Of a stretch of DNA of 64,000 nucleotides, positions 6,009-21,468 are shown one piece after another (the first letter of the stretch is position 1; each line of letters opens with the position of its first letter). The DNA lies in assembly GCA_028285595.1 (NCBI GenBank), contig JANQOW010000025.1:1-64000 (forward strand). Direction: 5' to 3'. Position numbers and translations under genes: made by a program. The DNA is from Hyphomicrobiales bacterium (GTDB lineage Bacteria > Pseudomonadota > Alphaproteobacteria > Rhizobiales > CAJQND01). The notes below the pieces were generated by a model that worked only from the letters and a program-made list of their open reading frames with translations, made no database searches and was not told the origin of the DNA.

Positions 6009-6028
6009 GCGCCTTAGACTTTAGGTGA

Positions 6029-6114
6029 GACGGGGCCAGTTCCCGTCTTGCCATTCCGTCTTTAATGAGACACAGCTAGGTGCGCGCGAGTTCACGCGCG
6101 CACCACATTTTTTT
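6029..6114 (+). terminator. Terminator region after pnp (two hairpins, second one strong)
   Basis: The first hairpin is GACGGG/CCCGTC (6029-6047) followed by TTG. The second is a perfect 10-bp stem GGTGCGCGCG/CGCGCGCACC with a 6-nt loop (6079-6104), followed by ACA and a run of seven T. The second is a textbook intrinsic terminator and should end the infB-pnp transcript. It sits only 25-35 bp before the ribosome-binding site of the next gene, so that gene probably has a promoter overlapping or preceding this hairpin, or depends on readthrough. Confidence 0.85.
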
Positions 6115-6138
6115 GCATTTCCGCAAGGAGATCCCCCA

Positions 6139-7311
6139 ATGGCAACACCCACCGCAAACTGGTCCTATCCCACAGAAGTCCGCTTCGGCGCCGGGCGCAT
6201 CGCAGAGCTGGCAGACGCCTGCAAGGCCGCCGGCATGGAGCGCCCCTTGTTGGTCACCGATCCTGGCATTGTTGACCTGCCGATCACACAGAGCGCCTTA
6301 GACGCTGTGAAAGCGGGCGGCCTTGAAGTTGGGGTCTTTTCCGATGTGAAGCCCAACCCCACAGCCTCAAACGTGGAAGCGGGCGTTGCCGCGTTCAAAG
6401 CCGGCGACCATGACGGTGTGATCGCCTTTGGCGGTGGTTCCGGGCTCGATGCGGGCAAAGTGATTGCGTTCCAGAAGGGTCAAACCCGGCCCATGTGGGA
6501 TTTTGAAGATATTGGCGATTGGTGGACCCGGGCAGACCCGGACGGCATTGCGCCCGTCATTGCTGTGCCCACCACCGCCGGCACTGGTTCAGAAGTGGGC
6601 CGGGCGGGCGTGATCACCAACGAAGAAACGCACACGAAGAAGGTCATCTTTCACCCGAAGATGCTCCCCGTCACCGTGATTTGCGATCCCGAACTCACCG
6701 TTGGCCTGCCGCCGCACATCACCGCAGGCACCGGCATGGATGCGCTCGCGCACTGCCTGGAAGCCTATTGCGCCCCGAGCTATCACCCCATGTCTGAGGG
6801 CATTGCAGTGGAAGGCATGCGCCTGGTGAAGGACAATCTGCCGACGGTTTACAAAGACGGAACAGACCTTGAAGCGCGGGGCCATATGCTCTCTGCTGCT
6901 GCCATGGGCGCAACCGCCTTTCAAAAGGGCCTTGGCGGCATCCATGCACTGTCTCACCCAGTCGGCGCTGTTTATGACACCCATCACGGGCTCACCAATG
7001 CTGTGTTCATGCCCTACGTGCTGGTCTTCAACCGCAGTGTCATTGAAGAAAAGATCGGACGCCTCGCTGCCTGGCTTGGGTTGAATAACGCGTCCTTCAA
7101 CGGCTTCCTCGATTACATCATGCTGCTGCGCGAAGAGGTAGGCATCCCACACTCGATCAAAGACATCGGTATTGAGGATGACAGCAAGTTTGAAACCATG
7201 TCCGACATGGCCGTGGTGGACCCAACCGCTGGCGGCAACCCGATCGCTCTGGAAGTGGCCGGCGCCCGCAAGCTGTATGAGCGCGCCCTTAACGGTGAGC
7301 TGAAGCGCTAA
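6139..7311 (+). CDS. Iron-containing alcohol dehydrogenase
   Basis: This is a group III, metal-dependent NAD(P)-linked alcohol/aldehyde oxidoreductase of the FucO/YqhD superfamily, 390 residues. The start MATPTANWSYP has an AAGGAG site just upstream. The nucleotide-binding motif GGGSGLDAGK lies at ~98-107 and the phosphate-binding segment PTTAGTGSEVG at ~144-154. The expected metal ligands are D201, H205, H269 and H283 (the HHG motif), spaced as in FucO. It faces the amine-catabolism operon and overlaps its last gene by 4 bp. A role on an aldehyde produced by amine oxidation is possible, but it could be independent; the substrate cannot be read from sequence. Confidence 0.9.
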   Translation: MATPTANWSYPTEVRFGAGRIAELADACKAAGMERPLLVTDPGIVDLPITQSALDAVKAGGLEVGVFSDVKPNPTASNVEAGVAAFKAGDHDGVIAFGGGSGLDAGKVIAFQKGQTRPMWDFEDIGDWWTRADPDGIAPVIAVPTTAGTGSEVGRAGVITNEETHTKKVIFHPKMLPVTVICDPELTVGLPPHITAGTGMDALAHCLEAYCAPSYHPMSEGIAVEGMRLVKDNLPTVYKDGTDLEARGHMLSAAAMGATAFQKGLGGIHALSHPVGAVYDTHHGLTNAVFMPYVLVFNRSVIEEKIGRLAAWLGLNNASFNGFLDYIMLLREEVGIPHSIKDIGIEDDSKFETMSDMAVVDPTAGGNPIALEVAGARKLYERALNGELKR

Positions 7312-8183
7312 GCCGCGCTGCCGGACAAGGTTCCAATCGGCCCATAATGTTCCGGACGCCGGTCGCGGAACAGGCCCCAGCCGATGCGCTCCTGGCGCAC
7401 ATGGTCCAGATCAAAGGTGTGGGTCAGCACGGCATCGTCCGTGCGGCCCGCCTCTGCCACCATCTTTCCGGTCCAATCGCAAATGAAAGATGAGCCGTAG
7501 AAGCTCATCTCCGTACCGCCTTCAGGATGCTCCGAACCGATGCGGTTCGCCGCCGCCAGCGGCACCATATTGGCTGCCGCATGTCCGCGCATGGCGGTTT
7601 GCCAGTGGTCCTTTGAATCATAAGAGGGGTTGTTGGGCTCATTGCCGATTGCTGTGGGATAAAGCAGTATTTCGGCGCCTTGCAGCACCATGCAGCGCGC
7701 CGTTTCCGGGAACCATTGGTCCCAGCAGATGCCCACGCCCACCTTGCCAAAGGCGGTGTCCCAGACTTTGAACCCGGTATCGCCCGGGTTGAAGTAGAAC
7801 TTCTCTTCGTAGCCTGGGCCATCGGGAATATGAGTCTTGCGGTAGATGCCGAGGTTGGCGCCGTCCGCATCGATCATGGCGATTGAGTTGTAATGGGCGT
7901 TGTTGCTGCGCTCAAAGAAGCTCACCGGCATGGCGATGCCCAGTTCGCGGGCAAGATCTGAGAAGCGTTGGATGGCCGGATGGTTATCAGGCTCCTCGGC
8001 CCGGGCGAAGTTTGCCGGTGTTTCCACCTGGCAGAAGTAATGGCCCTCAAACAGCTCTTGGACCAGCACAACATTGGCCCCTTGACCCGCCGCCTTGCGC
8101 ACCAGCTCTTCAGCCTTGTCGTGATTGGCCGACCGGTCATCGGAACAGGCCATCTGCGTCACACCAATGGTTACTTCAGCCAT
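7308..8183 (-). CDS. aguB: N-carbamoylputrescine amidase (nitrilase superfamily)
   Basis: The enzyme hydrolyses N-carbamoylputrescine to putrescine, CO2 and ammonia, the last step of the agmatine deiminase route. The 291-residue length fits. The catalytic triad of the carbon-nitrogen hydrolase family is visible: E43 in VQELFEGHYFC, K116 in YRKTHIPDGPG and C153 in GICWDQWFPE. The HIPDGPGYEEKFYF and GICWDQWFPE contexts are characteristic of the AguB/plant CPA branch rather than general omega-amidases. It is the last gene of the leftward amine operon, 18 bp after the flavoprotein gene. No agmatine deiminase (aguA) is in the window, so the source of N-carbamoylputrescine is unknown. Confidence 0.87.
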   Translation of the reverse strand: MAEVTIGVTQMACSDDRSANHDKAEELVRKAAGQGANVVLVQELFEGHYFCQVETPANFARAEEPDNHPAIQRFSDLARELGIAMPVSFFERSNNAHYNSIAMIDADGANLGIYRKTHIPDGPGYEEKFYFNPGDTGFKVWDTAFGKVGVGICWDQWFPETARCMVLQGAEILLYPTAIGNEPNNPSYDSKDHWQTAMRGHAAANMVPLAAANRIGSEHPEGGTEMSFYGSSFICDWTGKMVAEAGRTDDAVLTHTFDLDHVRQERIGWGLFRDRRPEHYGPIGTLSGSAA

Positions 8184-8201
8184 GAGAGCTCTCCCTTATC
8201 T

Positions 8202-10277
8202 TCATTCGGCCGCCAATCCGACCACTTCCCGGCGGAACGGCACTTCACCTGGCGCCAGCTCGGGCGCATCCAGCTCCCGGGCATAGCGATGGCCCGCATA
8301 GGTGGCCCAGGCGATAGGCGCGGGGGCTTCGGCATCGCCGAAGACTTTGATCGATTGAATGCCGGCATCCGCCCAGTCGGCCTTGCGCCCCTTCAACGTC
8401 TGCCAGAGCGCATCGTTGGGATCGCGAGAGGTAACATAGACAACGGCCTCAGCAGCAAGTGAAGACCGCGCGCGTGTGTAGATGCACTCAGTTTCCACAT
8501 GATCGTCATGCACCGCCGCCAGCGCCTTGGCCGTGACAATGTTCACACCCAGCTCCAAAAGGCGCGCCTGGATGAAATGCTGCTCAAGTGTGTTGAGCGT
8601 CCATTCAGAAACATGGACGGACGGGGTCAGCAAGGTCACGGTTGCGCCAATCGCCACCAAGAGTTCCGCCAGGACGCCGCCCATGTAGAAATGATCATCA
8701 TCGTAGAGCAGCACGTTGCCGCCCGGCAGGGTGCCAGCCATGAGATCATCCGGTGTGTAGGCCGCCATCTGTTTAGAGGTCGGGATGGGGCTCAAGTGGT
8801 AGCGCGCGACCGCATCTTTCCGCCAGCTGGCCCCGGTGGCCAGCCCCACATGTTCAAAGCCAAACTCCAGAACTTCATCTGCCGATAAATTGCTGTCGAA
8901 GTAGGTTTGCACGTTGGCCATTTGCGAGATCTGATAGTCTCGGTAATCGCGCACCCGGCCCCAAGCGCTGAGGCCTGGCAGCTTGCACTCAGATGCCACG
9001 CGGCCGCCGAGCTCGGTTCCCGCCTCGGCCAGCGCCACGTCATAGCCTCGCGCGCCCAGGGCGCGGGCGGCTTCAAGGCCGGCCGGTCCCGCCCCGACGA
9101 TAAGGACCCGTTCGCTGGGGCCCTTGGCTTGCATGATCTCCGGATGCCAGCCTTTGCGCCACTCTTCCATGAATGTGGGGTTCTGCGTGCAGCGGCTGAT
9201 GCCGCCGGTCATGTCGCCGGTCACGCAGATGTTGCAGCCGATGCATTCGCGAATGTCTTCAATCCGGCCTTCTTCGATCTTCTTGGGCAAGAACGGATCG
9301 GCAATCGAAGGCCGGGCCGCACCAATGAAGTCCAAGATCCCCGATTTGATTTGGCGCACCATGGTGTCGGCAGAGGTGAAGCGGCCAACGCCAACGACGG
9401 GCTTGGTGGTCAGAGCCTTAAAGCCGCGCACATAGTCTTCCTGCGCGGCCTCATCCTTAAAACGCGAGGTGCCGGAATCGTCCGGCCAGGTGCCGTGGGT
9501 GAAATCCCAGAGATCCGGCAGTTCGGCCAGCATGCCCACCACATCCCGGATCTCTTCGTTGCTGATGCCGGTTTCGCCCAGCATCTCTTCGATCAAGATC
9601 CGCACAGGCACCGCGCAGGTATCGCCAACGGCATCCTTGGTGTCCTCAATTAGCTCCTTCAGCAGCCGGGCCCGGTTCTCCAGGCTGCCGCCATACTCGT
9701 CTGTACGCTGGTTGGTGCGCCTAGACAGGAAGTGCTGAACAGCGCCGAACGTGTGGGCGCCATAAACGTAGATGAGATCAAAACCACATTTCTTGGCCCG
9801 GATGGCCGCATCCCGGTGCCAACGTCTCAGGTTGGCGATATCTTGTTTGTCCATGGCCCGCGCCTGCACCGGATCATAGGTGAACGTGGCAACCGGCATG
9901 TTGATCGGCGCCAGAGGCACTTCGCGCGAGTAGAGATTTGGGCTGTTCAGGCCGTTGTAGCAAAGCTCGATCCCCGCAAGCGCATCCTGTTCATGGATCT
10001 TGTCGGTAATGCGCTGAAGGGCCGGCATGTCCTGGTCGTCCCAAATGCGCATTTCGATGAACGGCGCAATCTCTGAGGACGGATGGATCTCCGCCTGCTC
10101 GGTGTTGATCACCGCCCAGCCGCCCTCGCCTTTGATCTTGCGCATCTCCGCCACGGCCGAAGGGTCCCTATAGCCGCCGCCATTGCAGTGGGGCACTTGA
10201 TAGAACCGGTTCTTGGCGGTGACGGGGCCGATCTTCACCGGCTCAAACAAAATATCGTAGCGTGGATCGCGGGCCAT
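8202..10277 (-). CDS. Trimethylamine/histamine dehydrogenase-family flavoprotein (6-S-cysteinyl FMN, 4Fe-4S)
   Basis: This is a 691-residue complex iron-sulfur flavoprotein. An OYE-like TIM barrel (~1-340) starts like trimethylamine dehydrogenase (ARDPRYDILFEP), with Cys31 in YQVPHC at the position of covalent FMN attachment. The cluster motif CX2CX2CX11C is C345, C348, C351 and C363. An FAD/ADP-binding Rossmann part follows (VLIVGAGPAGLEAARAL, ~391). Residues at the substrate bowl are Q61, W264 and D355. In TMADH these are Tyr, Trp, Trp; in Nocardioides histamine dehydrogenase Gln, Trp, Asp. The ATG at 10277 has GGGAG 8 nt upstream and is preferred to a GTG one codon earlier. A histamine, polyamine or other primary-amine substrate is likely; methylated glycine (DgcA-like) is the alternative. 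Confidence 0.85.
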   Translation of the reverse strand: MARDPRYDILFEPVKIGPVTAKNRFYQVPHCNGGGYRDPSAVAEMRKIKGEGGWAVINTEQAEIHPSSEIAPFIEMRIWDDQDMPALQRITDKIHEQDALAGIELCYNGLNSPNLYSREVPLAPINMPVATFTYDPVQARAMDKQDIANLRRWHRDAAIRAKKCGFDLIYVYGAHTFGAVQHFLSRRTNQRTDEYGGSLENRARLLKELIEDTKDAVGDTCAVPVRILIEEMLGETGISNEEIRDVVGMLAELPDLWDFTHGTWPDDSGTSRFKDEAAQEDYVRGFKALTTKPVVGVGRFTSADTMVRQIKSGILDFIGAARPSIADPFLPKKIEEGRIEDIRECIGCNICVTGDMTGGISRCTQNPTFMEEWRKGWHPEIMQAKGPSERVLIVGAGPAGLEAARALGARGYDVALAEAGTELGGRVASECKLPGLSAWGRVRDYRDYQISQMANVQTYFDSNLSADEVLEFGFEHVGLATGASWRKDAVARYHLSPIPTSKQMAAYTPDDLMAGTLPGGNVLLYDDDHFYMGGVLAELLVAIGATVTLLTPSVHVSEWTLNTLEQHFIQARLLELGVNIVTAKALAAVHDDHVETECIYTRARSSLAAEAVVYVTSRDPNDALWQTLKGRKADWADAGIQSIKVFGDAEAPAPIAWATYAGHRYARELDAPELAPGEVPFRREVVGLAAE

Positions 10278-10280
10278 CAC

Positions 10281-11309
10281 TCACGCTCCCAAATAGCCTT
10301 GCAACACGTTGACCGTGTTGATCCCGATTTCTTCCACCGCATATCCCCCTTCCATGACGAAATGCGTGGGCAGGCCCAACCCTGCGATGCGGGCACCGTA
10401 ATCAGTGAAATCCTCAGACTTCAACTTGAAAAAGCTGATGGGGTCGTTCTCAAAAGTGTCCACGCCCAAGGAGATGATCAGGACGTCTGGGGCATAGTTT
10501 CGGATCCGTTCCAATCCTTGGTTTAAGGCGTCTCCCCACATGGAATAAGGTGTTCCGGGCGGCATTGGGAAGTTGAGGTTGAAGCCCTCTCCTGCTCCGG
10601 CGCCGGTTTCATCTGCAAAGCCCAGGAAATGAGGAAAGGCATCCATCGGATCCCCATGGAGTGACACAAACAGAACGTCAGCACGTTCGTAGAAGATGTC
10701 CTGGGTTCCGTTGCCATGGTGAAAGTCCGGATCAAGAATTGCGACGCGCTCTGCACCTGCATCCAGATAGCCTTGCGCAGCAACCGCGGCGTTGTTGAGG
10801 AAGCAGTAGCCGCCATAAAGATCACTTGCGGCATGGTGGCCCGGCGGACGGCAGAGGGAGAACGCCGTGTTCGCGCCTCCTGAAATCAGCTTCTGGCCTG
10901 TTTGAGCAATGGCGGCGCTGGCTTCCGCGGCTTCGAACGTCCCTGCCGTGATCGCGGTTTCGATGGCCATGCAGTAATAGCCAAGCTTGCCATCGATATG
11001 GGTGGGCTCGCGCTGCTGCATGCGCCGAGCCGGGATCACCGTGGGCAGCGCTTCGCCTTCAAAGCCTTCAGCATCCCAGAGTGCCCAGGCGTTTCGCAGA
11101 AACTCCAAGTATGGTGCAGTGTGAACTTTGCGCACCGGCGCCCAATCCAGAGGATCCGGTGCAGCAAAGTCATCGAACCCGCAGAGCTTCAAGCGCTCAA
11201 CAATGTGTTCCCAGCGTTCCGGGCATTCGAACGGACGCACCAGCTCGCCGCCATAAAGCTCCCCCTTTGGGAAGTGCTTACGGTGATCTTCGCTGCAGAT
11301 GATTCTCAT
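10281..11309 (-). CDS. Acetylpolyamine amidohydrolase (class II histone-deacetylase family)
   Basis: This zinc amidohydrolase is predicted to remove acetyl groups from acetylputrescine, acetylcadaverine or acetylspermidine. It has 342 residues. The active-site series is H158-H159 in RPPGHH, zinc ligands D195 and H197 in DPDFHHGNGTQ, D284 in LGVDTFENDP, and catalytic Y323 in EGGYAVEE. As I recall it, this is the same residue numbering as the Mycoplana ramosa polyamine deacetylase (341 residues). The gene lies 9 bp after the amidase and ends one to four bases before the flavoprotein start. The context (Pot-type uptake, amine oxidation, AguB) supports a polyamine substrate rather than acetoin or protein deacetylation. 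Confidence 0.88.
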   Translation of the reverse strand: MRIICSEDHRKHFPKGELYGGELVRPFECPERWEHIVERLKLCGFDDFAAPDPLDWAPVRKVHTAPYLEFLRNAWALWDAEGFEGEALPTVIPARRMQQREPTHIDGKLGYYCMAIETAITAGTFEAAEASAAIAQTGQKLISGGANTAFSLCRPPGHHAASDLYGGYCFLNNAAVAAQGYLDAGAERVAILDPDFHHGNGTQDIFYERADVLFVSLHGDPMDAFPHFLGFADETGAGAGEGFNLNFPMPPGTPYSMWGDALNQGLERIRNYAPDVLIISLGVDTFENDPISFFKLKSEDFTDYGARIAGLGLPTHFVMEGGYAVEEIGINTVNVLQGYLGA

Positions 11310-11318
11310 TTTGTCGCC

Positions 11319-12743
11319 TTATAGGGATGGACGCTGAAAGCCGAAGGCCGGCTCAAGGGCAGCCGCCACGTTGAAAACCGCCGGCTCATCGTACGCTGAC
11401 CCTACGATCTGAACGCCGGTGGGGATGTTGTTTTCTGCAGTTCCAGAAGATACAGACATTACCGGACATCGGCTCAACATGTTGAACGGATGGGTCATGA
11501 CCCAACCGTACTCGCCGTCCACCACCACATCATTGATGCGGAAGTCTTTGTTCCAGGAATCATGATCGGCCGCCACCGCAGGCACGGCATTCGTGGGACA
11601 GATCATGGCATCATAGCCTTCCATCTGGGCTCCGAACACGTTGTAAACCTCAACCGCTTTTTCCAAAGACTTCAGGAAATCGTCCATAGTGAACCGCTCG
11701 GCGTCTCTCACGGTTTCCAAGGCATAATCGGTCATCAGATCACCGTGCTCCGGGATCAGCCGTTTGATGTGCTGGCCCCACAGCATGGCCAGATAACACT
11801 GTGCAGCTTCCTGGCAGCTCTCGTCCCAAGGAAACTGGATCTCTTCGGTTTCCGCGCCGAGGTCTCGCAACTGTTCAACCACGCGCATGGTATTCCGGCG
11901 CACTGCATCGTCGAGCTGGAAATACCCCAGATCCACAGACCACGCGATCTTGCGCCCGCGCACCTCGCCCGGCTGTTCTGCAATGCGCATGGCGCCTGGA
12001 AGAGACGCAATATCCCGAGGGCTTTGTCCGGCCGAAACATTGAACATGGCGAGGCAGTCGCTCACGGTCCGTGTCATTGGGCCGGAGTGGGAGTAGAAGT
12101 CGAGGTTCATCACCGGGGTTTCTGGAATGCGCCCATAGGCCGCCTTCAGACCCACGATGCCGCAGCACGCGGCGGGAATGCGCACAGAACCCCCGATATC
12201 CGTCCCTGTACCCAATGTTGTCGTTCCCGCGGCCAGTGCGGCGCCGGTGCCACCGGAAGATCCGCCGGGCGTGTGCGCCAGATTATAAGGGTTGCGGGTA
12301 ATGCCCCACATCTTCGACTGACACGTGCCCAAGAGGCAGAATTCCGGCGTGGTGGTGCGCGCGTGGATGATGACGCCAGCGTCCATGAGGCGCTCGGCAA
12401 AGACATCCGTCTGATCATCGATGTGATCTTTGAAAATCAAGGAACCGCTGGTGGTCCGCCGGCCCTTCAGCCGGATTTCATCCTTGATCACGCAGGTCAA
12501 TCCGTCCAGCGGTCCAACCGGTCCCGCGCTTGACCTGTAGCGCGCTTCAGATGCGCGGGCCGCATCAAGCGCCTCTTCATAATAGGTATCTGCGAAGGCA
12601 TTGATTTGAGGCTCGACAGCCTCAGCCCGCGCGATCTGGGCTTGGAGAATCTCTACAGGGGAAAGCTTACCGGATCGGAACAGTTCTAACGCCAGGCTCG
12701 CCGGCATGTAGCATAAATCTAGATCGGCCATGGCCACCCGCAT
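11319..12743 (-). CDS. Amidase-signature hydrolase
   Basis: This is a 474-residue amidase of the amidase-signature (GatA-like) family. The Ser-cisSer-Lys triad is K87 in CVIKDEI, S162 in PGGSSGG and S186 in GTDIGGSVRIPA. The Gly/Ser-rich signature spans ~158-190. It is a stand-alone enzyme; there are no gatB or gatC neighbours. It lies between the periplasmic polyamine-binding protein and the acetylpolyamine deacetylase in one leftward operon. A role in cleaving an amide-conjugated amine (for example an acyl- or glutamyl-amine) is plausible but the substrate is unknown. An alternative ATG four codons in (12731) gives MADLDLCYM, which is equally reasonable. Confidence 0.85.
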   Translation of the reverse strand: MRVAMADLDLCYMPASLALELFRSGKLSPVEILQAQIARAEAVEPQINAFADTYYEEALDAARASEARYRSSAGPVGPLDGLTCVIKDEIRLKGRRTTSGSLIFKDHIDDQTDVFAERLMDAGVIIHARTTTPEFCLLGTCQSKMWGITRNPYNLAHTPGGSSGGTGAALAAGTTTLGTGTDIGGSVRIPAACCGIVGLKAAYGRIPETPVMNLDFYSHSGPMTRTVSDCLAMFNVSAGQSPRDIASLPGAMRIAEQPGEVRGRKIAWSVDLGYFQLDDAVRRNTMRVVEQLRDLGAETEEIQFPWDESCQEAAQCYLAMLWGQHIKRLIPEHGDLMTDYALETVRDAERFTMDDFLKSLEKAVEVYNVFGAQMEGYDAMICPTNAVPAVAADHDSWNKDFRINDVVVDGEYGWVMTHPFNMLSRCPVMSVSSGTAENNIPTGVQIVGSAYDEPAVFNVAAALEPAFGFQRPSL

Positions 12744-12799
12744 CTCTCGCGCAAACGGAAAACGGGCGCACCTTTCGATGCGCCCGCCTCAGGATCAGA

Positions 12800-13825
12800 C
12801 TACTGGAGCAGCTTCGTCCAGATTCTGTCGATGGCCTTCACATATTTTGGCCCACAGCTCTTGCCGAACTTTACCGGCACTGAGGGAACGCTCACTTCCG
12901 GTGAGTTGGCCATGTCTTCGCCCATGTGCTTGTCAGACCCGGCGATAGGGTTCGCATACTTGGCGAAATCAGATTGAATGGCCATGTTTTCCGGCTTCAT
13001 CAACCAGTTCATAAAGATCTTGGCGTTTTCGATGTTCTTGGCGCCCTTGGGGATCACCAGGCTGTCGTACCAGCCCACAACGCCTTCTTTGGGGAAGCAA
13101 TATTTGATCTTGCCACCAGCGAGGCGTTGCTTCATGGCGTCGCCATTCCACGCATTTGAAATGTTGGTCACGCCACTGCCGAGCCGGTCCATGGTGCCTT
13201 CGGAAGAAAAGACCTTCACATGCTCTTTCTGCTTTTGCAGCAGAGCCTGAACCGCTTTCAGGTCTTCAGTTTTTTCCGTGCAGAACTCCTGACCGAGATA
13301 GATGTGCGCCATGTTGGCCACTTCTTCCGGGGTCTTGAACACACCCACACTGCCCGATGCCTTTTCGTTGGGCTCAAAGAACTCTTTCAGGCTAGAGCAG
13401 TCCCCAACGCCTGCGTCAGTGCGGATGGCGTATGAGGTGGTGCCCATTTGATACGGGCTGGAGTATTCCTGCTTGGGGTCCCAAGTTGGATTTTGGAACG
13501 CTTTTGCCACGTGCTTGAAGTTCTCCATCTTCGACACCTCAACCTTCTCCAGAAGGTTCTCAGCGATCATGATGGTCACGAAATTCTGGCTTGGCACAGC
13601 CAGATCATAGCCGGTCGCGCCCGACTTCAGCTTCGCAAGAAGCGTCTCGTTGGAATCGTAGGTATCGACCGTCACCTTGATGCCGGTTTCTTTCTCGAAC
13701 TTGGCGATCATGTCCGGCGCGGTGTAGTCGGTCCAGTTGTAGAAGAACAACTCTCCGGCCGCATGTGCCTGGCTCGCAGCCAGGCCGAACGCACCGGCAA
13801 ATGCCACTCCCAATAGTCTTTTCAT
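12800..13825 (-). CDS. Polyamine ABC transporter substrate-binding protein (PotD/PotF family)
   Basis: This periplasmic binding protein has 341 residues. It starts with a Sec signal peptide (MKRLLGVAFAGAFGLAAS, predicted cleavage after AHA). The mature protein opens with ELFFYNWTDYTAPDMIAKFEKETG, the PotD/PotF hallmark. Asp/Trp/Glu residues typical of polyamine pockets occur throughout, e.g. NAWNGDAM and GWYDSLVIPKGA. The ATG with GGGAG 8 nt upstream is chosen over a GTG one codon earlier. It heads the catabolic operon but is separated from the permease/ATPase genes (potG-H-I-like, 16.0-18.9 kb) by an MFS gene and an AraC gene. It most likely supplies that transporter with putrescine, spermidine or a related amine. 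Confidence 0.88.
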   Translation of the reverse strand: MKRLLGVAFAGAFGLAASQAHAAGELFFYNWTDYTAPDMIAKFEKETGIKVTVDTYDSNETLLAKLKSGATGYDLAVPSQNFVTIMIAENLLEKVEVSKMENFKHVAKAFQNPTWDPKQEYSSPYQMGTTSYAIRTDAGVGDCSSLKEFFEPNEKASGSVGVFKTPEEVANMAHIYLGQEFCTEKTEDLKAVQALLQKQKEHVKVFSSEGTMDRLGSGVTNISNAWNGDAMKQRLAGGKIKYCFPKEGVVGWYDSLVIPKGAKNIENAKIFMNWLMKPENMAIQSDFAKYANPIAGSDKHMGEDMANSPEVSVPSVPVKFGKSCGPKYVKAIDRIWTKLLQ

Positions 13826-14000
13826 CACTCATTCTCCCTCAGAATGCACTCGGCCTGAATGGCCCTCACGTTGACCGTGCCGACCCTGACGGGCTCCTGT
13901 GCGGCACGAAATCAGTCAGAAAGACTAGTGCATCCCGCCAGTGAGGGCTAGTAAGAATCCAACAAACCCATGCGCGATTTGGCTCGTTTTTTTAAAAGCA

Positions 14001-15197
14001 CTAGTTCGAGAGAATTGCGGCATGTCTGCCGTTGGCGCGCCGCTTGGGCAGGATAAGCGCGGCGGCGAGGACAACCGCGGCAAAGCCGGCCCAGATCGCG
14101 AACTGAATGGAAAAACCAAGCCCGTTCAAGTGCAACCACGAAAGCGCAGGAACCACCACGGCCGTGGTTCCGAGCGACAGAGTATACTCCACGGAGAACA
14201 CACGCGAGCGCCATCCCATTGGGACATAGGTGCCCACCAGCCAGCTTGACACCGGTATCCAAGCAAACATGGAGAGCACCAGCCCCATGCTGACCGGAAC
14301 GACGGCAGGTCCCGCCACCCAGGTGGTGATGTAAAGCAACCCTGCCTGGACGCTAAACAGAACGAACAAAAGTGGGCGTACGTCATAGCGGTCCAGAAAC
14401 CAGCCCACCGGAAGCTGGGCGAGCCCGGCTACCGCGAAGATCAGCCCTGCATAGCTGCCCACTTCAGACAAACTGGAGGACGCATCGGCCAGCCGTTCCG
14501 ACAAGAGCTTCGGCAGAGAGAGGCTGACCGCGTTGAAAATGACGCCGCCGAACAACGCTGCCGCAGCGACGAAGATCAACACGCGCCAGAGCACGGTGCG
14601 GCCTGCAATACCTGCGATCTCGGGGGCAGGCTTGTTTTCAGATCTGTTCCGGTCGGCGTGGCGTGCGAGCGCCAGGTGGAACATTCCCACCGTCACGCAA
14701 ACAAGCCCAGGCACGAGGAAGCTCATGCGCCATCCGAAGCGCTCGCACAGGAAGCCTGTGCAAATGGCGGCAACGGCCAATCCCATATTGCCCCACACCC
14801 CATTCACGGCCAGCGTATGACCCCGGCGCGCGCGGCCTTCGGTGACCATGGCGATCCCCACAGGATGGTAGATGGCGGCAAACACACCCAACCCGGCCAA
14901 CGCGGCGCTCAAAGCAAAGGGCCCAGGCGCGCTGGCAGCGGCCAGACAGCAGACGCCGCAGCCAATGAAGAACACGCTCATCATATGGGTGCGCGACCAC
15001 CGGTCCCCCAACCAGCCGGCGGGCAAGGTTGCCAAGGCAAACGCCAGAAACATGGGCGAACTCAAGGCCAGCGCTTCGCCGTAACTCATTTGCCAGTCCC
15101 GCTCGATCAACAACACGGCTGTCGGAAAGATCAAAAGCACATAATGATCCAGAAAATGGCCGAGGTTCAGAAACCGCATCCTTACGGCAGCGCTCAT
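14001..15197 (-). CDS. MFS transporter (fosmidomycin-resistance-like)
   Basis: This is a 398-residue major-facilitator protein with about 12 hydrophobic segments. An MFS motif A-like loop occurs between TM2 and TM3 (GWLGDRWSRTHMM, ~61). The segment AIYHPVGIAMV after TM4 is typical of the Fsr/YfnC fosmidomycin-resistance branch. The second half has a matching loop GWFLDRYDVRPLL. The start has AGGGA 9 nt upstream. It is divergent from an AraC regulator with only 50 bp between starts, the usual layout of a regulator and its target efflux or uptake gene. Substrate unknown; exchange of an amine or its breakdown product is a guess based only on position. Confidence 0.85.
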   Translation of the reverse strand: MSAAVRMRFLNLGHFLDHYVLLIFPTAVLLIERDWQMSYGEALALSSPMFLAFALATLPAGWLGDRWSRTHMMSVFFIGCGVCCLAAASAPGPFALSAALAGLGVFAAIYHPVGIAMVTEGRARRGHTLAVNGVWGNMGLAVAAICTGFLCERFGWRMSFLVPGLVCVTVGMFHLALARHADRNRSENKPAPEIAGIAGRTVLWRVLIFVAAAALFGGVIFNAVSLSLPKLLSERLADASSSLSEVGSYAGLIFAVAGLAQLPVGWFLDRYDVRPLLFVLFSVQAGLLYITTWVAGPAVVPVSMGLVLSMFAWIPVSSWLVGTYVPMGWRSRVFSVEYTLSLGTTAVVVPALSWLHLNGLGFSIQFAIWAGFAAVVLAAALILPKRRANGRHAAILSN

Positions 15198-15247: not shown

Positions 15248-16033
15248 GTGTCCATCTTTCGGCATCAGGTCATGAAATATCGCAAAAATGCCAAACCAAT
15301 GGTTCTACCGACCGTCGAGGGCTATTCGAGCGAATATCCGCGTGGGCACATTGTCGAGCAGCATACCCATGGGGCCGCGCAAATCGTGCACGCGGCAGAG
15401 GGGGTTATGCGTGTGGCGGCGGACGGGTCTTACTGGGTCATCCCTCCAGGGCGGGGATTGTGGGTTCCAGCCGGAGTACCGCATGGGTTTGTTTGCGTCA
15501 CGGCGGTGGCCGTCAGAACCGTCTATCTGACCGGTGGGCCTCAAGAGCTGCCCACTGAGAGTGAGGTGTGGCAGATCTCCAACCTGATGCGCGAGGTGAT
15601 CATCCGCCTCGCCGATGGCATGGATGGGCCCGAGAAAGAGCATTTGGTGGCCGTGTTGATGCATGAAATCAACCGCACGGAGACACTGCCTCTACACATA
15701 ACCCATCCAGTTGACCGACGGGCCAGGCGCATCTCCACTGCCATCGTCGCAGACCCGTCCGACACCACGTCCCTGGAAGCATGGTCTCAGCAGGCGGGCG
15801 CATCAGTGCGAACGCTAAAGCGCATTTTCGTGGCCGAGACAGGGCTAACCTTCGGACAGTGGCGGCGCCAAGTGCGCCTGATCGCAGCGCTTGAGCGACT
15901 GGCATTGGGTGAGCCGGTGACGGAAGTTGCCCTCGCGGTGGGCTATGAAAGCACCAGCGCCTTTATCGAGATGTTCCGCGAACAGCTTGGCACCACCCCT
16001 GGACGCTACTTCAGCGGCGATCATCGATCTTAG
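15248..16033 (+). CDS. AraC-family transcriptional regulator with cupin sensor domain
   Basis: This 261-residue regulator has an N-terminal cupin-like ligand domain (HIVEQHTHGAAQIVHAAEGV, ~30-105) and a C-terminal double helix-turn-helix (~res 155-255). The second HTH carries the AraC signature ALAVGYESTSAFIEMFREQLG...PGRYF. The GTG start is supported by AGGAG 9 nt upstream; an ATG eight codons in is the alternative. It is divergent from the MFS gene (50 bp) and probably controls it. It ends in a 4-bp convergent overlap with potI. Effector unknown. Confidence 0.88.
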   Translation: MSIFRHQVMKYRKNAKPMVLPTVEGYSSEYPRGHIVEQHTHGAAQIVHAAEGVMRVAADGSYWVIPPGRGLWVPAGVPHGFVCVTAVAVRTVYLTGGPQELPTESEVWQISNLMREVIIRLADGMDGPEKEHLVAVLMHEINRTETLPLHITHPVDRRARRISTAIVADPSDTTSLEAWSQQAGASVRTLKRIFVAETGLTFGQWRRQVRLIAALERLALGEPVTEVALAVGYESTSAFIEMFREQLGTTPGRYFSGDHRS

Positions 16034-16857
16034 TGTGTGCTGACCTTGTCGCCCTTGGCGGAGATGAACCAGTAGGCGCTGATGAAAGCGATGGATATGG
16101 CGAGCATCACTGTCGAAATCACGTTCACTTCCGGCGTAATGCCCTGACGGATCATGCCGTAGATGTAGAGCGGTAGGGTGGTCGCGCCGGCCCCGGAGAC
16201 CATCAACGTGATGATGAAGTCATCAACCGATATAATGAAGGCCAGCATGGCGCCCGCCACAATGCCCGGCGCCAGTATGGGCAAGGTGACATACCGAAAG
16301 GTTTCCCAGGCATTCGCATAGAGGTCACCCGCGGCCTGCTCCAACGTGGTGTCCATTCCGTCAAGACGTGCGCGGATCGGTAAGAACGCAAACGGGATGC
16401 AGAACACCGTGTGGGCAATGATGATTGAGAGTATGCCGAGCTGGAAACCAATTATTGCAAAGAAGCTCAATGTGGCCACAGCCGTGGCGATCTCCGGGAC
16501 CACCAGCGGCAGAGTGATCAATCCCAACGACGCGCTGCGGCCTTTGAATTGGCCGCCGCGGCTCAGCGCCAGCGCCGCCAAGGTGGCCAGCACGGTCGCC
16601 ATGACGGTGGCACAAACCGCAATGATGAGCGAGTTCAGCGCGGCATTCTGGATATCGTCATTGATGAAGGCCCGGTAGAACCATCGCGTGGAGAAGCCTT
16701 GCCAAATCTGTGCTCGGTTCCCGTCATTGAAGGAATAGGCCACCAGAACCAGCATGGGCAGATAAAGGTAGAAAAAGAAGAACAGGGTCCAGAGGTTCAT
16801 GCCCGGATAATGGCCGAGCACAAAGCCTTTGCGTTTCTTCGGAGCTTGCTTGCTCAT
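16030..16857 (-). CDS. potI: Polyamine-type ABC transporter permease (PotI/PotC family)
   Basis: This is a 275-residue inner-membrane permease. The ATG at 16857 overlaps the stop of the preceding permease gene (ATGA), so translational coupling is likely; longer upstream readings run into that gene and are rejected. After a short basic N-terminus (MSKQAPKKRKGF) there are about six membrane segments. The EAA-type cytoplasmic loop that contacts the ATPase is visible as EQAAGDLYANAWETFRYVTLPILAPG (~180-205). It forms the transporter with the two genes just upstream; its binding protein is likely the PotF-like protein at 12.8-13.8 kb. Confidence 0.88.
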   Translation of the reverse strand: MSKQAPKKRKGFVLGHYPGMNLWTLFFFFYLYLPMLVLVAYSFNDGNRAQIWQGFSTRWFYRAFINDDIQNAALNSLIIAVCATVMATVLATLAALALSRGGQFKGRSASLGLITLPLVVPEIATAVATLSFFAIIGFQLGILSIIIAHTVFCIPFAFLPIRARLDGMDTTLEQAAGDLYANAWETFRYVTLPILAPGIVAGAMLAFIISVDDFIITLMVSGAGATTLPLYIYGMIRQGITPEVNVISTVMLAISIAFISAYWFISAKGDKVSTH

Positions 16858-17753
16858 CGCCCATCCTCCATGGCCCGGCGCTTGGCCGCCGAGCGCGCCT
16901 GTATCATGAGCGCCACCATCACCAGCATCAGAAGGCAGATCGCAATGGCAGACCCGAAGGGCCAATTGCGCGACGAGGCGAACTGCAGGTGAATGAGCGA
17001 ACCAAGCATGAGTTTCTTGCCGCCGCCCAAAAGGTCCGGCGCGATAAACGCCCCAAGGCTCGGCACAAACACCAGAATGCAACCGGCGATGATGCCGGGA
17101 AGCGCCAGCGGCGTGATCACTTCGCGCATAACCCTTAACCGATCGGCATAAAGGTCATGCGCCGCTTCGATCAGCCTGAAGTCGAGCTTCTCGAGGCTCG
17201 CGTAGATGGGCAGTACCATAAGCGGCAGATAGGAGTAGATGAGCCCGACAGCGATGGCGCCGTTGGTGTACATCATGCCGAGCGAGCCATCGAGCAATCC
17301 GACCGCCTTGAGCGGCTGCTCAATCACACCATCTTTGGAAAGGATCAGGATCCAGGAATAGACCCGCACCAACTGGTTCGTCCAGAATGGCAAGGTGATG
17401 AGATAAAGCAAAAGGTTCTGCATCCGCGGGTCTTGCCGCGTGATGAAATAGGCCACTGGAAACCCTAGGATCAGACAGCCAACTGTGGCCACGAGCGCCA
17501 GCAAAATCGAACGCCAGATGATGCCCAGATAGATCGGGTTGAACACCAAGGTGTCGTCAAAGTCGATTTCATACAGCAGTTGAATATAGGCTTCGACAGA
17601 GAACCGCGGTTCCACGCCACCATAAGGGTCGGCTTCCAAGAACGAGAACACCAGCAAGATCAGCATGGGCACGACCATGAAGATGATGATGGTGATGAGC
17701 GCCGGCCCAAGGGCGAGTGCGCGGCGGGCGGCTATGCTGCGGGGAAGGTTCAT
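16854..17753 (-). CDS. potH: Polyamine-type ABC transporter permease (PotH/PotB family)
   Basis: This 299-residue inner-membrane protein has an N-terminal membrane segment (GPALITIIIFMVVPMLILLV) and further helices consistent with the six-helix PotB/PotH fold. The EAA loop is EAAHDLYADRLRVMREVITP (~205-224). The segment TLPFWTNQLVRVYSWILIL is characteristic of the family. Its start lies 4 bp after the ATPase stop and its stop overlaps the next permease start by 4 bp, so G-H-I form a tight operon. The periplasmic loop LEADPYGGVEPRFS matches polyamine permeases rather than iron or sulfate systems. Confidence 0.88.
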   Translation of the reverse strand: MNLPRSIAARRALALGPALITIIIFMVVPMLILLVFSFLEADPYGGVEPRFSVEAYIQLLYEIDFDDTLVFNPIYLGIIWRSILLALVATVGCLILGFPVAYFITRQDPRMQNLLLYLITLPFWTNQLVRVYSWILILSKDGVIEQPLKAVGLLDGSLGMMYTNGAIAVGLIYSYLPLMVLPIYASLEKLDFRLIEAAHDLYADRLRVMREVITPLALPGIIAGCILVFVPSLGAFIAPDLLGGGKKLMLGSLIHLQFASSRNWPFGSAIAICLLMLVMVALMIQARSAAKRRAMEDGR

Positions 17754-17757
17754 CGGG

Positions 17758-18858
17758 TCAGTCCACCAGCATCCGGGCGGCGCCGTCCGAGAAGCTCAGC
17801 TTCACGTTTTCGCCTGCGACAAACCGGCCCATGCCCGCTTGTGCGTTCTGATCGCGCACGGTGATCACAACGCCATCGCCCACATTAATGTCATAGGCGG
17901 TGTCCGTGCCCAGATATGTGGCTTCCTCAATCACCGGCAGATCGTTTGACCGCAACATAGTCTTCTGCAGCGATATGCGCTCCGGGCGGACCGCCAAGGT
18001 GACCGCGTCCCCCACGCCGTGGCCGTCGACGATATCCGTCTCAAATTGCAGAGCACCGCCTGTTATGCAAAGAGCCCGGTCGCCGGAAACCTGATCGATG
18101 CGCGCTTCGAGAAAGTTCGTGTCACCAATGAAGTCGGCCACAAACCGGTTAAGCGGCCGCTCGTAGATCTCCAGGGGTGATCCGATTTGCTGGATAAGAC
18201 CGGCCGACATCACGGCAATCCGGTCGCTCATGGTGAGGGCTTCTTCCTGATCGTGCGTCACAAAGATGAAGGTGATGCCCGTTTCACGTTGCAAGGTTTT
18301 GAGCTCGTGCCGCATGGCCTGGCGCAGCTTCAAATCGAGCGCCGACAAAGGCTCGTCCAGCAGCAGCACCTGCGGCCTTGGCGCCAGGGCCCGGGCGAGC
18401 GCGATGCGTTGCTGCTGACCGCCGGAGAGCTGTGCGGGTTTTCGGCCCGCGAATTCCTCCATCTTCACCAGCGCCAGCGTTTCATTCACACGTGCTCTGA
18501 TCTCCGGCCCACTCCATTTCTGCATGCGCAGGCCGAACCCGATGTTCTCCTCCACCGTCATATGCGGAAACAGAGCATAGTGCTGAAACACGGTGTTGAC
18601 CGGGCGTTCATGAGGCGGCAGATCCTCAATTTCTTGGCCGAACAGAAAAATCTCGCCGTCGGTGGGCTGCTCAAAGCCCGCCGTTAACCGCAGAAGGGTT
18701 GTCTTACCGCACCCCGATGGGCCCAGGAGCGTGAAGAATTCATTGGATTGAATTTCCACCGAAACATTGTTCAAGGCGGTCACCGCGTTTGGCCCGCTGC
18801 CGAACCGCTTGATCACATTGCGCACGCTTAACGCTGTTGCTGCGTCGTCCTCCGACAC
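17758..18858 (-). CDS. potG: Polyamine-type ABC transporter ATP-binding protein (PotG/PotA family)
   Basis: This 366-residue importer ATPase has Walker [10 protein letters not shown] (~46-54), Q-loop [12 protein letters not shown], signature LSGGQQQR (~144), Walker [12 protein letters not shown] (~165) and the switch histidine in [11 protein letters not shown]-terminal TOBE domain occupies ~285-366. The start is GTG with GGAGGG just upstream. The protein energises uptake of putrescine, spermidine or a similar cation through the two permeases encoded immediately after it. Assignment to polyamines rests on the permease/binding-protein types and on the amine-catabolic neighbourhood; the ATPase alone would also fit other MOI-family importers. 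Confidence 0.88.
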
Positions 18859-18957: not shown

Positions 18958-19875
18958 TCATTCCATGCCGGGGATCTGCCCATCGGTGATCATCTCCCGG
19001 CAGTGGTCTTCAAACGCTTGAAGCAGGCGCGGTTTACGCTCTTGGACCAAAGTGGCCGTGCCGATCCTCATCGGCCGATGTGTGCCGGCAAGCGGAATCT
19101 GCTTTAAACTCCGGCCGTCCAAGGTCACAAGACTGCGCGGCCGCACATTGGCAAGCGTATAGCCATATCCATTGGCCACCATGGTGCGCACCACTTCTTG
19201 TTGGCGTGAACGGGCATGGATCTTCGGGGTGAGACCTTCCTGATAGAAGATCGACAAGAAATATTCCCGGCTGAAGGGCAGATCCAACAAGATCATCGGC
19301 TCACCATCCAACTCAGCCAGCCGGATCGCAGAGCGCTCGCTTAAAGGGTGATCCGCACTCACGAGAACATGGGGCGGCAAAGTGGCAAGCGGCTCAAACG
19401 CCACGCCGTCCGGCACCTGCAGGTCGTAAGTGAGCACCAGATCCAAATCCACTTTGCGGAGCTGCGCCATCAGGCTTTCATGATCACCTTCAGCCAACTG
19501 CACCTGAACGTCGGGGTGGTTTTCCTGAAAGCGGTGGCACAACTCCGGAACGATCAGAGGAGCCAGTGTGACAAAGCACCCAAGCGCCAGATGGCCACGC
19601 ACCAGGTTGGTGGCCTCGTTCGCCACATCATAGATGCTGTGGGCTTGCTGCAGCAGAGCGCGGGCCTCGCGCTGCAAGCGGTGTCCCGCAGACGTGAGTG
19701 ATAGTCCTTGCGCATGGTGGCGCACAAACAGCTGAACGCCAAGATCACGTTCCAGGTGGGAAATGGCCGACGAGATGGAGGGCTGTGAGATGTTGATGCG
19801 CTCAGAGGCAAGCTTGATGCTGCCGGTTTCCCCGGTGGCCACAAAATATTCCAGCTGCTTCAGGGTGAAGCGCAT
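18958..19875 (-). CDS. LysR-family transcriptional regulator
   Basis: This 305-residue regulator has an N-terminal winged HTH (MRFTLKQLEYFVATGETGSI, SISSAISHLERDLGVQLFVR) and an effector-binding domain from ~res 90. The ATG at 19875 gives the canonical MRFTLKQLEYF start; a GTG two codons earlier is possible. It lies 28-35 bp downstream of the HpaB-type monooxygenase gene in the same direction. It may therefore be the last gene of that degradative operon, or control it, or control the polyamine transporter genes that follow 99 bp further left. No clear operator was identified. Confidence 0.88.
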   Translation of the reverse strand: MRFTLKQLEYFVATGETGSIKLASERINISQPSISSAISHLERDLGVQLFVRHHAQGLSLTSAGHRLQREARALLQQAHSIYDVANEATNLVRGHLALGCFVTLAPLIVPELCHRFQENHPDVQVQLAEGDHESLMAQLRKVDLDLVLTYDLQVPDGVAFEPLATLPPHVLVSADHPLSERSAIRLAELDGEPMILLDLPFSREYFLSIFYQEGLTPKIHARSRQQEVVRTMVANGYGYTLANVRPRSLVTLDGRSLKQIPLAGTHRPMRIGTATLVQERKPRLLQAFEDHCREMITDGQIPGME

Positions 19876-19909
19876 GGCCACATCACTCCCTCACTCGTAT
19901 GAGCCTCGC

Positions 19910-21376: not shown

Positions 21377-21468
21377 AGCTCCACCTCCATCCTCGCTCTT
21401 GGATTTGAGGATAGGCGGAAGATCCGGTTTTGAAAAATATTTATTGCGTATCCGCTGGATAGGTTTGT

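Follow-up and report, generated by a model that had tools for sequence, protein, structure and literature searches.

A histamine-dehydrogenase-clade flavoprotein in a putative operon for uptake and uncapping of acetyl- and carbamoyl-diamines

Introduction

Which amine, or amines, would be deaminated by a histamine-dehydrogenase-like flavoprotein whose gene lies among genes for predicted removal of acetyl and carbamoyl caps from diamines? This question is raised by a gene cluster in a 64,000-nucleotide stretch of DNA from a Hyphomicrobiales bacterium (positions 1 to 64,000 of contig JANQOW010000025.1, assembly GCA_028285595.1), the whole of which is referred to here as the window. A sequence-only reading had proposed that five tightly spaced, leftward genes encode a PotF-like binding protein, an amidase, an acetylpolyamine deacetylase, a flavoprotein of the trimethylamine dehydrogenase (TMADH) family and an N-carbamoylputrescine amidase. 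All five open reading frames (ORFs) were found where they had been placed, and Pfam and NCBIfam agreed with the family of each gene; the deacetylase was recognized by Pfam alone and no NCBIfam model matched it. Based on protein and neighbourhood comparisons, it is proposed that the operon serves uptake and uncapping of acetyl- and carbamoyl-diamines, with the histamine-type dehydrogenase as the likely deaminating step and histamine as a likely second substrate. This composite proposal was given a little less than an even chance of being correct.

Placement of the Flavoprotein

Among solved relatives, the flavoprotein most closely resembled histamine dehydrogenase of Rhizobium (6DE6; 1040 bits, 65% identity), followed by the Nocardioides enzyme (3K30; 895 bits, 60%), 6L6J (665 bits, 48%) and TMADH (532 bits, 43%). 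The bowl of TMADH is aromatic, with Tyr/Trp/Trp at its three positions. At these positions the window protein had Q62, W265 and D356, in the 692-residue frame that starts at GTG 10280. In the same frame, alignment placed the predicted FMN-binding cysteine at C32, and the predicted 4Fe-4S site showed an exact motif (C346-X2-C349-X2-C352-X11-C364). The sequence-only reading, which counted from an alternative ATG start at 10277, had reported the same cysteine as Cys31, the same CX2CX2CX11C motif, and bowl residues Q61, W264 and D355. It had likened the latter to those of the Nocardioides enzyme, in agreement with PMC10180351, where the proposed histamine-site residues of that enzyme include Gln65, Trp267 and Asp358. 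Active-site and tunnel positions were taken from the description of the Rhizobium enzyme in the same paper. At 18 of the 19 positions, Leu567 included, the window protein had the same letter as 6DE6; the sole exception was Gly175 (Rhizobium numbering), which is Thr in the window protein as a feature of its genus.

Two phylogenetic trees were built, both without proven DMADH, DgcA or StcD sequences. A quick tree of 58 rows contained 10 of the 44 Mesorhizobium rows. A more careful tree of 62 rows contained 5 of these 44; two loci (L055 and L078; loci are designated by L and a number), TMADH, one paralogue and two duplicate rows had been dropped. In the 62-row tree, the window flavoprotein fell within a 50-row clade that contains 6DE6 (support 100/100). 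The Nocardioides enzyme 3K30 fell outside this clade, on a long branch at an unresolved fork with unproven relatives; the quick tree agreed in this grouping. Two other TMADH-family proteins of the same genome (59 and 54% identity) were also placed outside it. By sequence, the flavoprotein is a histamine-dehydrogenase-clade protein, as the sequence-only reading had held; it groups with the Rhizobium enzyme and not with that of Nocardioides. Because the clade is shared with 6DE6, histamine dehydrogenase activity is the simplest prediction for the window protein, and because TMADH is far removed, primary-amine dehydrogenase is the best general one. Judged indirectly, by the 65% identity to a proven histamine dehydrogenase of the same clade, there is little scope for placement within a dimethylglycine or stachydrine clade, which the sequence-only reading had named as refuting.

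Other assignments were considered and set aside. A TMADH-type enzyme was rejected on its bowl residues (Q/W/D instead of Tyr/Trp/Trp), the 43% identity and the distance to TMADH. The genome contains 16 PF00724 genes, including a tandem TMADH-family pair on contig 55 (L097:5875-10111) whose neighbours resemble, by eye, a Rieske protein and an FAD oxidase. The other PF00724 genes were rejected as candidates for the histamine-type enzyme of the genome: the five of these 15 that were inspected showed different bowl residues, and a search of the genome with the window protein gave no more than three additional matches at E 1e-180.

Predicted Cap-Removing Hydrolases and Binding Protein

The predicted N-carbamoylputrescine amidase (AguB) showed 61% identity, within the aligned region, to the Medicago enzyme 5H8I and retained the Glu-Lys-Cys triad. 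Triads were intact in all nine AguBs that were compared, and the TIGR03381 cut-off, exceeded by the window protein, was also passed by the seven compared AguBs other than those of the window and of L009. The acetylpolyamine amidohydrolase (APAH) showed 60% identity to M. ramosa APAH (3Q9B), with conserved zinc-site residues, Tyr323, Glu117 and Asp106. The zinc-site residues, Glu117 and an acid (Glu/Asp) at position 106 were kept in 11 of 11 dehydrogenase-linked APAHs. Residues 106 and 117 are taken here to bind the distal ammonium group of the substrate of the M. ramosa enzyme. Since most unlinked APAHs in the same comparison likewise keep both acids, these are uninformative on linkage. According to PMC4784309, the Pseudomonas aeruginosa enzymes PA0321 and PA1409 are active on acetylputrescine and acetylcadaverine. 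The earlier deacetylase and AguB calls were borne out by these comparisons together with the PF00850 match and the TIGR03381 score of 456 bits, for which the cut-off is 410.

The amidase is the third of the predicted cap-removing hydrolases; its best solved relative, 6-aminohexanoate-cyclic-dimer hydrolase, scored only 160 bits. At the diamine site described for SpuD, the periplasmic binding protein retained four acidic residues (Asp, Glu, Asp and Asp), yet its overall identity was only 35%; the positions compared are presumed to be those of the SpuD site. The second-amine Asp was also found in the binding protein of L163, and a Tyr occupied this position in L175 and L048, both of them histamine-type loci.

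Recurrence of the Predicted Uncapping Genes Beside the Dehydrogenase

Gene neighbourhoods were compared for the best 80 of 551 relatives of the flavoprotein, 44 of them from Mesorhizobium, over up to 10 kb on each side. Neighbours were counted as tblastn markers; codon-weighted gene calling yielded few or no genes in some loci, such as L020, L048 and L058, and had replaced longest-ORF calling, which placed the dehydrogenase in a single cluster for just 68 of 81 sources. An APAH gene (at least 50% identity) was found near the dehydrogenase in 8 of the 80 loci and an AguB gene in 2. By chance, approximately 0.14 APAH genes would be expected in 80 loci, an estimate that assumes about 4 Mb per genome; APAH genes at this level of identity were present in 26 of 81 related genomes, the window's included. 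When 385 genomes were sampled evenly across the class, five besides the window's own fell in the clade; AguB was near the dehydrogenase in three of these and APAH in two. Neither gene occurred within about 9 kb in 13 loci of more distant family members (0/13). On the 62-row tree, linkage required at least eight changes for APAH, at least six for AguB and at least nine for either gene, contig ends leaving some of the scored absences uncertain. APAH or AguB genes stood beside the dehydrogenase in both alpha- and gammaproteobacteria.

A locus of the same genus, L009, which covers the same DNA as L173 of G001, contained the same five genes in the same order, at 83–92% identity. In L212, from another family of the class, a run of PotG-H-I-F, amidase (41%), dehydrogenase (64%), an EamA transporter, APAH (64%) and AguB (57%) was found, with a divergent aldehyde dehydrogenase gene. 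L163, from the window's taxonomic order, encoded AguB-PotG-H-I-F-amidase-APAH at 57–79% identity without a dehydrogenase, and L167 had adjacent APAH and AguB genes beside Pot genes, also without it. Further combinations were a dehydrogenase followed by AguB after 2 bases (L176), a LysR-dehydrogenase-PotGHIF-amidase-FMO-RidA-DUF1028 run (L175), a PotGHIF-APAH-AguB run beside a dehydrogenase-RidA-HpaB run (L211), and, in L209, a histamine-type cluster that holds all the markers and also contains AguB. In the fetched stretches of L161, L162 and L164–L166, whose APAH orthologues are 62–73% identical, neither a dehydrogenase nor AguB was called. Occurrence of the set without the dehydrogenase, its rearrangement with it and the repeated linkage indicate that the uptake and uncapping genes form a unit of their own that has repeatedly been joined to the dehydrogenase.

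The Rhizobium enzyme has WEDC in the loop after the bowl Trp; the window protein and that of L009 have WPDD, the L081 protein has WADC and the L176 protein WEAC. As a mark of AguB linkage this motif was dropped, with WEDC in the AguB-linked L209 and L212 and WEEC in L211.

Extent of the Predicted Transcription Unit

The sequence-only reading had limited the operon to 7308..13825. Its five genes are real and co-directional, with intergenic gaps, from AguB to the binding protein, of 18, 0, 9 and 56 bases, so that the stop of the APAH gene abuts the start of the dehydrogenase gene; the binding protein may start at ATG 13825 or at GTG 13828. However, the same strand also encodes, further upstream, PotG, PotH and PotI, a LysR-type regulator and an HpaB-type oxygenase (Table 1), and 7308–13828 is only part of the unit. 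Since the PotGHI-PotF order accompanies the set in L163 and L212, PotGHI (16030–18858) very likely belongs with the five-gene operon. No gene was called between PotI and PotF in those two loci. The LysR-type protein is likely the regulator of the operon. A scan for promoters and terminators gave 2 promoter-like sites, where shuffled sequence predicts 3.7, and 13 terminator-like sites, where it predicts 10.4; no use was made of these sites. At the other end, the iron-containing alcohol dehydrogenase gene had counterparts of 85–90% identity in the same-genus L009 and L173; its other matches among the 80 loci reached only 27–28%.

Table 1. Predicted genes of the cluster and its surroundings (positions in the window).
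Feature	Coordinates	Strand	Basis or remark
Iron-containing alcohol dehydrogenase	6025..7311		Convergent with AguB, ends overlap by 4 bases
AguB-type N-carbamoylputrescine amidase (nitrilase superfamily)	7308..8183	-	TIGR03381, 456 bits (cut-off 410)
Histamine-dehydrogenase-clade flavoprotein, 692 aa from GTG	8202..10280	-	Predicted Cys-FMN and 4Fe-4S sites, Rossmann half
Acetylpolyamine amidohydrolase (APAH), HDAC fold	10281..11309	-	PF00850
Amidase-signature hydrolase, no assigned substrate	11319..12743	-	PF01425
PotF/PotD/SpuD-type periplasmic binding protein	12800..13828	-	PotD/PotF/SpuD solved structures
MFS transporter between PotI and PotF	14001..15197	-	PF07690; match in same-genus L009
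AraC-type regulator, divergent	15248..16033	+	PF12833 and cupin domain
PotI-type permease	16030..16857	-	ORF list; start inferred at ATG overlapping PotH, listed ORF to 17082
PotH-type permease	16854..17753	-	ORF list; 79% to L163 protein
PotG-type ABC ATPase	17758..18858	-	ORF list; 67% to L163 protein
LysR-type regulator	18958..19881	-	53–62% to LysR neighbours of the dehydrogenase (L010, L011, L058, L066)
HpaB-type flavin-dependent monooxygenase	19910..21472	-	PF11794/PF03241

Histamine-Type Neighbours of Related Dehydrogenases

In the 80-locus sample, genes near the dehydrogenase encoded FMO (53/80), RidA (59/80), DUF1028 (56/80) and M20 proteins (55/80); outside Mesorhizobium the corresponding counts were 12, 18, 15 and 11 of 36. 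One stretch of an Arthrobacter plasmid combined genes for aldehyde dehydrogenase, a primary-amine oxidase, TetR and LysR regulators, FMO, RidA, DUF1028, M20 and aspartate ammonia-lyase. This gene set matches the functions of hinD, the oxidase, hinK and hinF, L, H, G and I as listed for Brevibacterium and P. putida in PMC6467879 (see also PMC8231116). By this analogy, FMO, RidA, DUF1028 and M20 likely correspond to HinF, L, H and G of a histamine-to-aspartate operon. In Shinella WSC3-e, whose dehydrogenase is 93% identical to 6DE6, the cluster reads LysR-aldehyde dehydrogenase-dehydrogenase-ABC-binding protein-RidA-DUF1028-argE, with the FMO gene about 40 kb away; in Pseudosulfitobacter the FMO gene lies inside the cluster. 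In many hosts, the enzyme thus likely heads a histamine-to-aspartate route.

In positions 1–30000 of the window, markers for FMO, RidA, DUF1028 and M20 were not found, and only HpaB and LysR were. An HpaB-type gene near the dehydrogenase was also observed in L010, L066, L082, L177 and L211; in all of these except L082, no FMO gene was found in the fetched stretch. Its presence without FMO in four of five loci suggests that HpaB may be an alternative imidazoleacetate monooxygenase. Side observations on the same sample were a small cupin gene directly 3' of the dehydrogenase in L081, L087 and L180, and a GMC-family oxidoreductase gene within 10 kb in 30 of the 80 loci, including 28 from Mesorhizobium.

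Related Genes Elsewhere in the Genome

Searches of the window's own genome with proteins of the histamine-type clusters returned relatives of FMO (72% identity), RidA (63%), DUF1028 (48%), M20 (50%) and aldehyde dehydrogenase (49%). The HinF-like FMO gene accompanies a formamidase-family gene on contig 59, and the M20 gene is on contig 75. On contig 30 (L096:4150-8606), genes for RidA, a PhyH dioxygenase and DUF1028 occur together with genes for agmatinase and a class-III aminotransferase. The amidohydrolase of the Pseudosulfitobacter cluster had only a 31% match. On this gene content, a histamine route and a diamine route are both possible in the organism.

Contig 15 was seen to encode an agmatine-deiminase-family protein (L098:7469-8587) that scored 156 bits, below the 382-bit cut-off of the agmatine deiminase model, and whose N-terminus resembles a signal peptide by eye. 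If this protein were exported and active on agmatine, N-carbamoylputrescine would be made outside the cytoplasm.

Discussion

In the proposed pathway, PotGHIF would import N-acetylputrescine, N-carbamoylputrescine, agmatine or putrescine, and APAH and AguB would strip the acetyl and carbamoyl caps to yield putrescine. The dehydrogenase would convert the freed primary amine to an aldehyde and ammonia without formation of hydrogen peroxide, its electrons passing from FMN via the 4Fe-4S cluster to a carrier such as electron-transfer flavoprotein (ETF), and an aldehyde dehydrogenase encoded elsewhere would complete the oxidation. The dehydrogenase would likely oxidise histamine too and so supply the HinF-like and related enzymes that the genome encodes at other loci. 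The same pairing with uncapping genes in further bacterial families makes it likely that a single enzyme acts on several natural amines.

Several observations weigh against this proposal. At least one of FMO, HpaB, RidA and DUF1028 was encoded within 10 kb of the dehydrogenase in 63 of the 80 relatives and at least two in 57 (outside Mesorhizobium, 22 and 16 of 36), so that APAH and AguB, at 8 and 2 of 80, are much the rarer neighbours; moreover, many genomes carry APAH orthologues with no dehydrogenase nearby. The proven Rhizobium enzyme prefers histamine, with agmatine at 10% and 1,3-diaminopropane at 13% of its rate (PMC10180351), and because the tunnel of the window protein is almost that of the Rhizobium enzyme, putrescine may be a poor substrate. 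The amidase is left without an assigned substrate, and the best match to the aldehyde dehydrogenase of the histamine-type clusters, only 49%, is on another contig (109). Finally, the binding protein of the Shinella histamine-type cluster (L178) has the second-amine Asp, which is therefore no clean marker but a mere hint. Given the number of relatives with histamine-pathway-type neighbours, histamine and putrescine are about equally probable as the substrate. Deamination of a primary amine, as claimed earlier for the flavoprotein, remains the best prediction from its clade.

These observations could also mean that histamine is the only substrate of the dehydrogenase, and that a separate diamine-uncapping module is simply expressed together with it. 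Histamine would then pass via imidazole acetaldehyde to imidazoleacetate, and from there to aspartate through HinF-like and related genes elsewhere. This is a real, if doubtful, possibility. It would account for the frequency of histamine-type neighbours (63/80; 22/36 without Mesorhizobium), for the Shinella cluster around a 93% relative of the proven enzyme, for the own-genome relatives of FMO, RidA, DUF1028, M20 and aldehyde dehydrogenase, and for LysR and HpaB genes of the dehydrogenase-neighbour kind at 18958–21472. A passive neighbour would not, however, explain why APAH and AguB recur in separate lineages and in at least three arrangements, and for the Pseudosulfitobacter-type amidohydrolase the genome holds only a 31% match. 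That the hydrolases instead act on capped histamine, such as N-acetylhistamine, and that the whole operon scavenges histamine, was judged improbable. APAH does lie in or beside hin-type clusters in L048, L058, L081, L087 and L211, and the AguB of L209 within a cluster holding the full marker set; but all 11 APAHs keep the acids presumed to bind the distal ammonium of acetylpolyamines, the AguBs pass the N-carbamoylputrescine model, and the same module exists without the dehydrogenase in L163 and L167.

That the enzyme has come to act mainly on putrescine or agmatine where AguB is linked to it was likewise regarded as unlikely. The four AguB-linked rows first known (window, L009, L081 and L176) had non-WEDC loops, and Thr replaces Gly175 in the window's genus, but the loop pattern was broken by the wider sample (L209, L211 and L212). 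Chance neighbourhood without shared function is very improbable: variation of gene order among lineages and the MFS and AraC genes inside the region would fit it, against which stand the complete set in two families, the abutting genes, the repeated linkage and its absence from the 13 control loci. Beyond the proposal of uptake, uncapping and deamination, it is suggested tentatively, with clearly less than an even chance, that PotGHIF-amidase-dehydrogenase-APAH-AguB is a conserved, undescribed system in which histamine and uncapped diamines would share one deaminating step, catalysed by the flavoenzyme without peroxide formation. Its histamine half would be encoded elsewhere in the window's genome, and both halves would lie side by side in L209 and L211.

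The sequence-only reading knew of no described pathway with this gene set. No paper describing it turned up among the listed titles and abstract openings, in a search that mostly did not extend to subscription papers; the set is not isolated, as it occurs rearranged in L212 and as APAH and AguB recur. The pairing of the dehydrogenase with APAH and AguB is recurrent and apparently undescribed. A search for literature on both DUF1028 and RidA found no paper, and homologue searches with FMO and the amidase gave no informative names among the matches listed. Nor did the titles and abstract openings searched yield an account of the role of histamine dehydrogenases in their hosts. In many rhizobia, roseobacters and gammaproteobacteria, the enzyme probably stands in for HinC aminotransferase or copper oxidase as the first enzyme of the histamine-to-aspartate route, and in other lineages it appears to serve uncapped diamines. 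Two amine pathways that are usually treated apart would thereby become linked. The Rhizobium histamine dehydrogenase has reportedly been the subject of engineering work. Food-testing kits reportedly make use of histamine dehydrogenases (PMC8372101), and the relatives described here offer new enzymes for distinguishing histamine from other amines, namely agmatine and putrescine.

Comparison with Known Systems

The closest characterized relative is the histamine dehydrogenase of Rhizobium sp. 4-9 (6DE6, Q60I59), which shares with the window protein 65% identity, the clade, the FMN cysteine, the Gln/Trp/Asp bowl and the residues at 18 of the 19 positions compared in the active site and tunnel. 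The window protein differs by Thr for Gly175 and by the loop WPDD for WEDC. While a 93% relative of the Rhizobium enzyme sits in a histamine-type cluster, the window's gene sits in a proposed capped-diamine operon. The enzyme of Nocardioides (Pimelobacter) simplex (3K30) is 60% identical and has the same Gln/Trp/Asp residues, with an Asp three residues past the Trp as in the window, but lies on a long branch outside the 50-row clade.

The hin catabolon of Pseudomonas putida U and Brevibacterium resembles the neighbourhoods of many relatives, in which likely counterparts of HinF, L, H and G occur, and FMO and RidA relatives are present in the window's genome. In the catabolon, however, the first step is catalysed by an aminotransferase or copper oxidase, and hin genes are not beside the window's dehydrogenase. 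At the aphA locus of Pseudomonas aeruginosa, an APAH gene (55% identical) adjoins a PotF-type binding-protein gene, but the binding protein is only 34% identical, and no such dehydrogenase, amidase or AguB is annotated within 9 kb. According to PMC5500553, 6-hydroxypseudooxynicotine oxidase (Pno) of Agrobacterium S33 is another TMADH-family protein with FMN and 4Fe-4S cofactors and with polyamine-type ABC genes nearby; it is 46–48% identical to histamine dehydrogenases and belongs to a nicotine pathway.

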